The position numbers and the translations under genes are program-made. Below, piece by piece: positions 8,294-15,084 of a DNA stretch of 64,000 bases (position 1 is the stretch's first letter; every line of letters begins with the position of its first letter). The notes beneath the pieces are model-generated. The model was not told where the DNA came from and did not search any database. It saw only the letters and a list, made by a program, of their open reading frames with translations. Origin of the DNA: Bryopsis sp. KO-2023 (Eukaryota > Chlorophyta > Ulvophyceae > Bryopsidales > Bryopsidaceae); NCBI GenBank assembly GCA_030272585.1, contig BSYQ01000001.1, positions 5,642,001-5,706,000 of the forward strand. The letters are read 5' to 3'.

Positions 8294-11282
8294 TCACTTG
8301 GGCCCCTTCCCTCCAGAGCCCTTGCCGAATAGGGATGGCATTGGGAAACACGTATCACTGAGTGCTCTCCTTGCGCGTGATTGGTCCGTGGAGCTGCGCT
8401 TGCGACGGCTTTCCATGGATGGCATCCTTGCCCGTAGACCCCTTTCATCCACCTGGATTTCCCCAGCAGTGGATCCTCTTCGTGGAGCAAAAACTCCCCT
8501 GCTTGATCTGGTCGAGGAGGATCTTGGGTGCAGCAAAAACACGCAACAAGAAGTTAACCACAGCCTGTCAGTAGCATTGGACTTCCTCAGAAGACTCTGG
8601 AATGCGTTCATATATTGATTTTCACCTTGTGCTTCTCGACCCATTCTCCCGCATCGACCGGGAACTTGGTTGTGGAGTTTGCTTCGAGCTGGGCTGCGGT
8701 TCCAACTCTGTTGGTCTCATCCCTTGCAAGGAAATCTTTACACAACGTTCTTATCAGCGACCCCCACAGACAATCCTAATTCCATTCAGGGTTTGATTTC
8801 ACCGTCCAAATCGGGCTGTGCATGAATCAGAAACGACCTTCAAAATGTAGATTTTCAAGCTCCAACCATTCTTTCAGGTCAGACTCAGGTAGGAGGCAAT
8901 CCGGTCCTTGCTTTCACAAGCCGTTAAAAGTCGCCAGGACGGTTTCTATGTGCGACATGGGGAGGGTTGGTTTAGGGTTTAGGGTTGCGCGAGCGACCGG
9001 CGTAGGGCACATTCGTTGGACATTGGACCACGGTCCTTGGCGGCTTTTAACGAGATGTCTTGCTTTCTCACCTCCGAGGCATCACGTCTACCAAGATCCT
9101 CCATTTTGTTCACGTTCTCAACAGTGCTGTGTAGTCTGACATTTTCGGTAACCAAAGGGGACAATTCCTTGATGTTGGTCTCGAGACGCTCATTTTCTTT
9201 CTGCAGCCTTCGTGACATCTTGGCACGCTCATGCAGGAAGGCATTTCTTGCCTGAATTTGTCCCAACAAAAATGACTCTCTTCAACTCTTCCTCCAATAC
9301 ATTACAGAGGCTGAAAGCTGTTGTAGCCCGATTCACTATGCATATGAGTGATACGAACCCAGGATGTTTTTTTTGCTATGAAAACAACAGACCGACCTAA
9401 TCGCCACATTTTCCTCGATATTTAATCTGCACATTGTTTGATTGTTTGGGACATAGGGTTTGACTGACATGCCCCTACCTCAGTTTTTATCACCAGACAA
9501 GTAATCCACTTTTTTGGCATTTGGATAAATGTGCCGTGTTCTGCAAGAGACAGCCTACAAAACTACGTTGGATAAGGAAGGAGCTAAAGTGATTACCTCA
9601 ATCTGGGCACTCCAGCGCGTTTCTCGTTCAAGGGCATTATTTTCATTGACGAGGTCTTCCATCCTGAGCCACCACAAGAACACCGATGTTGAGATAAGAA
9701 TGGGGGAATTGAAGGGCAGACAAGAGACCTTAACGGGAAACTGCTGGAAATTAAAACTTGCGCACACGGTATTCGACTTGGCATGCTGCCAATGTCACAA
9801 CAGTCAGACAACCACACGACACCAAGCAGCAACCCAATACATTTGATCAGTTTCTATTTCTCAAGGAGGTCCAGACGAATGAGATCCGTACGTCTCGACA
9901 AGTTTCTTGAGTCTTGCATTTTCTTGGCGGGCACGATCCCTCCGAGCCACAATTTCTTGCAGTTCAGCATTTTCACGATTCAATTTCTCGACTGCCTCCG
10001 CCTCTTTCTTGAGATCCTGATTCTTTTTTACAACAGCTGGCATTTGGTTCACGAGCGTCCTAAGGCCCATGTTTTTGGATTCCAACGCACAAATTTCATT
10101 AACCTGCCCACACAGCAAGCAACACAAGAATTGAACACCATCTCGACGTTTGAGCATCCATAAAGCATTTTGGAAAATCGTTTCTTCAAGGGAAAAGGAT
10201 AATTGCAATTCCTTGATCGGCAAATTTTTCAACACTCCATGAAAACTCACTGTCGGATGAGTCAATCGTTCTTGGCAGGGTGCCACCCCAACCAATCAAC
10301 TCACTCATTCACTCACTTTTTCAAGGGTGGCCTTCAATCTCTTGATTTCAGCATCTTTCACAGCAATCAACTCTTGCATTTCTTTGAATTTCACACTTCC
10401 ATTTGGAACTTCTCTCACAGCACTGTCCCTACGTGCTGCGCTCGATTCGGCTGCAACAGGAGCTGCTCCACCAGCAGCCATACTGGTGGTCGCTCCCTTC
10501 GACCCAATCCCTCTACTCGAAGTCGATCGAGAAACCCTGGCACCCCCCAAAGAATCCATCATACCCTGCATGGATACATTTCCTTCCTGTGCTTTCCGTA
10601 TGGTGGCTTTCAGTCTTAGAGAGGAGCTCTCTGAGCTTGAGGTTTGTCTGGCTGAGTCATTGTCACCCCTTGATCCTGGCCTGGATTCTACACCCCCACC
10701 CCCCTCCCCACCCCGGACCCCATGTGCCCGATCCCTGTCACCCCTGATCTTCTCATTCCCTTTCAGGTTCCACGAGCTTTCCACCATGGACTCGAACCTC
10801 CCCACTGTAAAGTCATCACTCTTGCTTCTAGTTTTTTTTGCCCTGGGCTCTACTTCACTTGAAGTGCTTCCAGTCGTCTGTAGCAACCTCTGTCCTTTGC
10901 TTTGACTTCTTGAGGTGCTCCCCCCACGAATCCTATAGTGCAACCGTTCTATTCTGGACTCGCAGTTCGCCAGACTCCTGTCCAGGGATTCCAGTCCATC
11001 CCCGATATTGGGAGATGTCTCGCGCGCGACGACGCCCGAGGTACGTTTGGGAGCTTTCAGAGTCGACTCGGGGCTCTGCGCACCATCGAACGAGAAAGAA
11101 TCCGGCCCAGCGTCGCAAGAGGTTTGCCTGGGGCGACACCCGATTTCTAGCTCCCTTATCTCTTCGGAGAGTCGCTTGAGTCGTTTTTCTCTGTCGGTTA
11201 ACGCTTTGTCATAAAAGAAAGTGCGCTCCAACTTTTTTTCCTCGTGCTGCTGCGTCGTCGACGGCAACTTTCGCCGTAACAT
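8294..11282 (-). CDS. Coiled-coil protein, multi-exon
   Basis: Starts at the ATG at 11282 (MLRRKLPSTTQQHEEKK). Exons in consistent phase: 11282-10317, 10103-9892, 9663-9597, 9251-9072, then probable serine-rich exons near 8730-8633 and 8535-8294 (ends LFGKGSGGKGPK). The first exon encodes a charged N-terminus (RTFFYDKALTDREKRLKRL), a long Ser/Arg/Gly-rich disordered stretch, and then a helix (KEMQELIAVKDAEIKRLKA). The next three exons are heptad-like coiled coil (NRENAELQEIV, ENNALERETRW, RRLQKENERLETNIKEL). The tail is Ser/Arg-rich. It may be a structural, cytoskeletal or centrosomal protein, but no family was recognised. The exon between 9072 and about 8730 is uncertain, and the intron there contains a telomere-like repeat fragment. 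Confidence 0.68.
8961..9006. repeat. Telomere-like repeat fragment in intron
   Basis: The stretch contains GGGTTGG, then TTTAGGGTTTAGGGTT, then GCGCGAGCGACCGGCG. In reverse complement the same order (CGCCGGTCGC, CCCTAAA units, ACCAACCC) occurs at 14882-14926 inside the fold-back element. It therefore looks like a remnant of the same repeat family, lying in an intron of the coiled-coil gene. Confidence 0.7.
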
Positions 11283-14439: not shown

Positions 14440-14786
14440 CGATTTTGCCAAATTATTATGTTGACGTGGAGTGACCAACCAGCAGAATATCGCGCGTTCA
14501 GGGGGAACTCGATGGGGATTCTGTCGTTGCTCGGGCACCACAGTAGGGATCTTGCGCAAAACGACGTGGCTCCCAATTTACGCAGCCACGTCACGTACGA
14601 CAGCGTAATTTCGCGGAAATTTTCACTGATGCTGACAAGGATCCGTAGTTAAACGGAGTCCTGTTTGAAAAGAGTCAAAATACGTACGTAGAAAACCTGC
14701 ATTTCCGCGAAGGACGGCACTATATCCCGTCCGTTGGGGGGTGGGTCGTACGAATCACGTGACCATTTCGAATTTCAGATGATCAT

Positions 14787-14895
14787 CGCGCCGGTTGCGC
14801 CGGTCTACTCCGCGGTCGCACGGCGCGCGCCGGTCCACCTCGCGGTCGCGGCGAACGCGCCGGTCTACCCCGCTCGCGGCGCGCCGGTCGCGCTA
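14787..14895. repeat. GC-rich imperfect tandem repeat
   Basis: About four degenerate copies of a unit starting GCGCCGGTC and containing CGCGGTCGC, with sharply higher GC than the flanks. It forms the central part of the fold-back element. Confidence 0.7.
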
Positions 14896-14919
14896 ACCCT
14901 AAACCCTAAACCCTAAAAA
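14893..14919. repeat. Interstitial telomere-type repeat (CCCTAAA)n
   Basis: One CCCTAA-like start followed by three CCCTAAA units, directly after the GC-rich tandem core and before AAACCAACCC. TTTAGGG is the telomere unit of plants and several algae, so this hints at the host's telomere type or at capture of telomeric sequence by the element. Confidence 0.75.
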
Positions 14920-15084
14920 CCAACCCAACATTATGTTTTCGAAATGGTCACGTGATTCGTACGACCCACCCCCCAACGGACTGGATATAGTCCCGTCCTT
15001 CCGCGAAATTACGCTGTCGTACGTGACGTGGCTGCGTAAATTGGGAGCTGCGTAGTTTTGCGCAACATCCCTAGTGATGTTTGA

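Follow-up and report, generated by a model that had tools for sequence, protein, structure and literature searches.

A block of minisatellite and telomere-type repeats common to MITEs with different terminal repeats in Bryopsis sp. KO-2023

The 64-kb window analysed here (contig BSYQ01000001.1 of Bryopsis sp. KO-2023, positions 5,642,001 to 5,706,000) contains at 14541-15074 a pair of long inverted arms enclosing GC-rich tandem repeats and telomere-type CCCTAAA units, which raises the question of what kind of element carries telomere repeats between its arms. A preliminary description took the locus for a single fold-back element with arms of about 230 and 137 bp. A scan of the whole window for inverted pairs (arms of at least 30 nt, spacing up to 2,500 nt) found two pairs at the locus, 14541-14618 with 14999-15076 (78 nt, 94%) and 14686-14772 with 14938-15024 (87 nt, 86%), and the sole further pair in the 64 kb was 33 nt at 73%. 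The arms are thus present as described. Their lengths are not, because the two apparent arms (14541-14772 and 14938-15074) each sum two separate inverted-repeat pairs, which is also why they are unequal.

The exact nonamer TTCCGCGAA flanks the inner element on both sides (Table 1). When 11 of the 16 other outer copies with both ends were compared with the outer sequence of the window minus the inner element and minus one TTCCGCGAA, all 11 aligned through the insertion point with 92-97% identity and no more than one gap. A search of the organism's own genome (91.1 Mb, 28 contigs) with 14541-15074 as the query found parts 1-171 and 459-534 side by side with the middle missing, and the middle on its own. 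It is nearly certain that the locus consists of two nested MITEs, the inner within the outer, and the empty sites and duplications show that a family A MITE (287 bp, 9-bp duplication) landed within a member of an unrelated MITE family (3-bp duplication). Capture of subtelomeric DNA by one fold-back element whose arms differ in length would explain the inverted arms and the CCCTAAA repeats, both of which exist, but it is highly improbable: the inner element is missing from every outer copy compared, full inner copies (L010 and L011) sit outside any outer copy, the locus has two different duplications, and the GC-rich repeat is absent at the four telomere boundaries read. The view of the locus as a non-autonomous transposon type held up, with many copies, conserved termini and target-site duplications; the genome search returned at least 114 matches (40 of 121 candidates scored). 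A second copy of the composite, with outer ends around an inner A, was not found among the scored matches. The window locus is a nested pair prior to any end-swap step, with mobilisation of the composite as a proposal.

Table 1. Window positions of the features of the nested locus and of the family K element
Feature	Position	Strand	Remark
Outer MITE	14545..15072	.	AGGGATGTTGCGCAA termini; about 232 bp without the inner element
Outer 3-bp duplication AGT, left	14542..14544	.	read at L036
Outer 3-bp duplication AGT, right	15073..15075	.	read at L036
Inner 9-bp duplication TTCCGCGAA, left copy	14703..14711	.	
Inner 9-bp duplication TTCCGCGAA, right copy	14999..15007	.	
Inner MITE, family A, 287 bp	14712..14998	+	full copies elsewhere with other duplications
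Inner left terminal inverted repeat	14712..14772	+	61 nt, 97% to the right one
Inner right terminal inverted repeat	14938..14998	+	61 nt
GC-rich minisatellite part of shared core	14786..14890	+	
Telomere-type tract, CCCTAAA x3, of shared core	14897..14919	+	
Family K MITE, 143 bp	8916..9058	-	ends ACAAGCCGTTAAAAG / ACATCTCGTTAAAAG
K 9-bp duplication CTTGCTTTC, left	8907..8915	.	
K 9-bp duplication CTTGCTTTC, right	9059..9067	.	

The outer element is a MITE by its short length, inverted ends and duplication of fixed length. Of 20 loci examined, among them that of the window, 17 have both ends, and the 3-bp duplication was exact in 14 of these 17 (19% in the swapped-pairing control). PIF/Harbinger elements make 3-bp duplications of the form TWA; the 3-bp duplication of the outer family reads AxT in most copies and AGT in the window. 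Three outer-type copies, L048, L050 and L052, are 705, 770 and 435 bp, well above 232 bp. From these long copies, the outer family may contain other inserts and may often serve as a landing site.

The inner element also has the properties of a MITE, with 61-bp ends at 97% identity and duplications that are exact in three of five family A elements. The full copy L010 is identical to the window's at 284 of 287 letters and is flanked by the duplication AACTTTCAA; L011 is identical at 265 of 287 and is flanked by TTTTGAGAA. L003 matches the window's inner element at 99% over 283 letters and misses the outermost letters of one end, and the A ends of L022 and L024 are flanked by letters that do not match (3 of 9). 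The inverted ends make the whole inner element fold strongly (z -13.5); the core by itself showed no unusual folding (z -1.33), and the Rfam model MIR8670 stayed below threshold on the inner hairpin (50.8 bits against a gathering score of 150, E 6.4e-9).

The ends of family A are also found 7 kb apart at L123 (about C4:6243916-6250897), where they match A at 88%, form inverted arms with 98% identity over 91 nt and are flanked by the 9-bp duplication TTTCGAAGG, read by eye. L123 has neither an exact GCGCCGGTC nor a pair of heptamers, and the core of A is not a remnant of this element, the one DDE-transposase element found. Two overlapping frames of L123 (373 and 172 aa) encode a putative transposase: they match a 533-aa open stretch in L124 at E 2e-10 and 5e-8 (values from a one-sequence comparison with no composition correction), a genome search with the first stretch found L124 at E 2.8e-5, and three acidic positions, which we take to be a catalytic triad, are in register between the L123 and L124 frames. 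Among five L123 frames scanned with Pfam, DDE_1 was the only match (16 bits on the second stretch, cut-off 22), with no transposase match on the first stretch and no MULE domain; the L124 frame passed the DDE_1 cut-off with 31.2 bits. Sequence searches of the PDB with the transposase frames returned no transposase. The search with the L123 transposase frame gave three matches of equal score, at C1:7757343, C10:4012561 and C13:1063253, each in a 672-aa open frame; the first of these, read in part, is L124. Judged from sequence, family A looks like the non-autonomous partner of a DDE-transposase element, with an element of the L123 kind as its likely source, and the L123 transposase may be active or may move A. 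DDE_1 transposases do not usually make 9-bp duplications. Families A, H, I and K share their 9-bp duplications and long terminal repeats with Mutator-like MITEs, but Pfam found no MULE transposase in the scanned frames of the 7-kb relative with A ends, whose DDE_1 match is weak.

Between the ends of the inner element lie the GC-rich tandem repeats and CCCTAAA units that had been noticed at the outset, and both were confirmed: an array with a period of about 30 nt of the GCGCCGGTC type at 14797-14884, and three heptamers starting at 14897. The telomere-type pattern CCCTAAACCCTAAA, for which shuffled sequences give an expectation of 0.00, occurs three times in the window, twice overlapping at the inner tract and once at 8971. 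Classification of MITEs usually rests on their ends, and where their interiors come from is often obscure. The same block, minisatellite then telomere heptamers in the same order, was found inside ten terminal-repeat families. Both ends could be recognised in 39 elements of nine types among the 66 loci read, which represent 65 places (L020 and L118 overlap); L106 and L112 match the 12-base core pattern alone and have no core, and the remaining loci have one recognised end or none. Apart from full-length copies, many places in the genome (a lower bound) match in the GC-rich and telomere part only, and the 66 loci read are of this sort.

The flanking duplications of the core families are 8 or 9 bp long, and 9 or 10 bp in family C. 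The 8-bp duplication was exact in 3/3 elements of B, 9/9 of D, 1/1 of E, 3/5 of G (the other two with one mismatch) and 1/4 of J (three with one mismatch); the 9-bp duplication was exact in 3/5 of A, 4/4 of H and 4/5 of I (one with one mismatch); and family C, scored as 10 bp, had one exact duplication of three, one of 8 of 10 and one of 3 of 10. Across the 39 elements 29 duplications were exact and 6 more had one mismatch, so that 35 of 39 had at most one, while pairings swapped within a family matched at a mean of 2.0-3.7 letters and at most 6 (family E, with one element, has no such control). Terminal motifs and duplication lengths were taken from the same loci in which they were then counted, so these figures are descriptive and not predictive; for the duplications the swapped pairings serve as a safeguard. 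The four elements without a good duplication are L022 and L024 (3 of 9), L015 (8 of 10), which is an odd pairing of two ends, and L084, which scores 3 of 10 with its stated ends and yet has a 9-letter duplication beside them. In family C copies with an intact left end, an A precedes that end, which leaves 9 or 10 bp as the length of the duplication, and C, like A, may make one of 9 bp. The superfamilies of the core families are guesses from duplication length. The ends of D, E and G are similar; therefore ten families need not mean ten transposases. Family F (L014), with A-type subterminal sequence and ends that are not settled, is an eleventh candidate. Five family I elements (L083, L090, L091, L102 and L114) are about 550-590 bp long, and in those examined the core is present as two pieces, both of which have a telomere-type tract. 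The C-type copies L026 (C2:3029241) and L027 (C2:2546928) have flanks that look mutually reverse-complementary, as a segmental duplication in inverted orientation or a fold in the assembly would give.

The cores form three related groups, A/B/C/J/F, D/E and G/H/I. In a comparison of family representatives (plus strand, E up to 1e-4), A matched C at 96.8% over 125 letters of core, with no match between their arms found at E 1e-4, B at 89% over 161 and J at 82% over 291; G and H, which differ in their outer ends and in the length of the duplication (8 and 9), matched at 89% over 217, and D and E at 80% over 187. The best matches between families reached 98%, both for A/C and for G/H, and some cores were closer to another family than to their own: those of L013 and L022 in A, three J copies, L115 in G, L105 in H, and L083 and L087 in I (L105 also has an I element, and its row in the comparison may be a mix-up). 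The junction from GC-rich repeat to heptamers is alike in nine representatives; J has a ten-letter gap, and in H the start of the tract is shifted. An exact core/telomere junction occurs 97 times on 16 contigs and a longer form 49 times, both with 0 in the control. Searches with one exact pattern found no core in viral contigs or in bacterial and archaeal genomes. A search for the PBS-linker domain (PF00427) gave no match, which speaks weakly against a red-algal host. On these sequence comparisons, it is well supported that the minisatellite and telomere block is a homologous core common to the ten families. That such repeats are prone to collapse in assembly is general knowledge, but the chance that the pattern is an assembly artefact is negligible, with exact duplications at many separate loci and those 97 junctions spread over 16 contigs.

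How did one core come to lie between so many ends? The reading that we favour, and consider probable, is that of a modular MITE core whose terminal repeats were changed by nesting and by recombination through the repeats of the core. The core would repeatedly have swapped its terminal repeats, and hence the transposase that mobilises it. By the first route, a core-bearing MITE would enter another MITE, the outer ends would mobilise the composite and the old ends would erode; the window locus could represent the first step of this route and family J its outcome. By the second, ectopic recombination or gene conversion between elements would exchange cores, the breakpoints falling within the minisatellite and the telomere repeats. 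Transposases acting in trans would move the elements, and slippage would vary the tract length between copies; within family D the tract ranges from 2 to 7 heptamers. This mechanism of core exchange between ends is likely, and we put it forward as inferred from two patterns. The interior of J is the body of A minus its outermost 10 and 14 letters, set between different ends. The three A-bodied J copies have a duplication with one mismatch each, and the fourth, L100, with another core, an exact one. This pattern suggests that nesting came first and that the new ends were then used; J has no trace of A's 9-bp duplication, and so we infer its nested origin. The match between A and C is bounded by the margin of the minisatellite at one end and by the telomere tract at the other, which suggests recombination through the repeats. 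Because GC-rich repeats recombine easily, the A/C match may reflect later homogenisation and not a single transfer.

Vertical descent from one ancestral MITE, with ends that diverged and cores that were never exchanged, could account for the three related core groups, for the similar termini and 8-bp duplications of D, E and G, and for the subterminal sequence that B, J and F share with A. We consider it unlikely, however, since the A and C cores are 97-98% identical with no arm match found, the G and H cores are 98% identical with different outer ends and duplication lengths, and gradual divergence would not spare the core alone unless the core was homogenised. Still less likely, in our judgement, is a core that is itself mobile or templated and was pasted independently into many MITEs, for instance as double-strand-break filler. 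Clean edges at the repeats between A and C would fit such pasting, but no core with its own flanking duplication was noticed among the loci read, loci without ends (L030, L107 and L108, for example) look by eye like decayed A-type copies, and the subterminal sequence of A also occurs in B, J and F, so more than the core has travelled.

The heptamer tract bears the organism's own telomere unit, as had been supposed: arrays of CCCTAAA occupy 8 of the 19 readable 1.5-kb stretches at contig ends (one more, L071, reads N throughout). At L075 (C9:5678730-5680229) the contig end opens with other sequence, and 23 heptamers lie further in the 1.5-kb stretch. The proposed capture of subtelomeric DNA found no support in what was a limited test. 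Exact GCGCCGGTC is absent from the 19 readable ends and from three further 3-kb stretches, which together reach four telomere/subtelomere boundaries (C1, C3, C7 and C9), and the GC-rich repeat that was expected beside true telomeres was not found at any of these four. The longer junction was placed 48 times on contigs whose length is known, never less than 100 kb from an end, where a uniform spread expects about 1.6; there is thus no sign that junctions are enriched at contig ends. The GC-rich block lies distal to the CCCTAAA strand, whereas a simply copied chromosome end would be expected to have it on the other side. The other suggestion, a scar of telomere insertion at a break, does not fit this locus, since the tract is internal to an element and is found in other copies of that element elsewhere, with duplications of their own. 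The tract probably derives from old telomeric DNA or from a seeded heptamer, and probably none of the subtelomeres read here is its source.

A G-quadruplex motif with loops of up to 12 was found in 31 of the 39 elements, where shuffles expect 2.6, and with loops of up to 7 in 27 (0.8 expected). As a common denominator of the families the motif was rejected, for it is not universal (0/3 in C, 1/3 in B, and 0/5 in A with short loops). It is conceivable, though we hold it doubtful, that the block is a selected, exchangeable cargo domain that aids the amplification or persistence of MITEs as a binding platform for telomere-repeat proteins or as a G-quadruplex former. Such a domain would be to DNA transposons what the conserved central domains are to SINEs.

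PMC6887750 describes highly conserved SINE domains (CORE, V) and a composite MITE, MER6, that took up a V-SINE. This conserved central domain and its passage into MER6 are the closest parallel: in both systems a central block is conserved while the rest changes, and spread inside a MITE is one of the routes proposed here. The present case differs in its inverted-repeat MITE carriers, its block of minisatellite and heptamers and its nesting of MITE in MITE. Tetris, a foldback element of Drosophila, is likewise non-autonomous, with inverted arms and tandem repeats in the element (PMC4079207); in Tetris the tandem repeats form part of the arms, whereas here the arms enclose them as part of the core, and the long unequal arms arise from two pairs, one nested in the other, rather than from the tandem-repeat arms of one foldback element. 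In Anopheles, AgaP2-P12MITE combines parts of two P subfamilies, and copying from ectopic sites is discussed as a source of MITE interiors (PMC1562414); that MITE has two unlike ends within one element, whereas here one interior has many end pairs. Among the listed titles and abstract openings of the open-access literature, none announced a core that recurs in MITEs whose ends differ, or a MITE core that contains telomere heptamers, and passages of PMC12595863 and PMC2820488 hold nothing on either point.

If cores have changed ends as proposed, one interior has outlived many end pairs, with both 8- and 9-bp duplications, and the persisting unit would be the core and not the MITE. The core is also a source of interstitial telomere repeats for which neither telomere fusion nor break repair is needed, and the window locus illustrates what the first step of an end swap could look like.

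The window contains a second core-bearing MITE, of family K, 5.7 kb from the nested locus, with a truncated core and two CCCTAAA units on the minus strand. Two more K copies have the duplications GGAACAAAC and GGGGAAGTC, read by eye, so that 3/3 copies read have a 9-bp duplication. Among the matches listed for the genome are 41 further ones to K, and 24 of these span at least 130 of its 143 letters.
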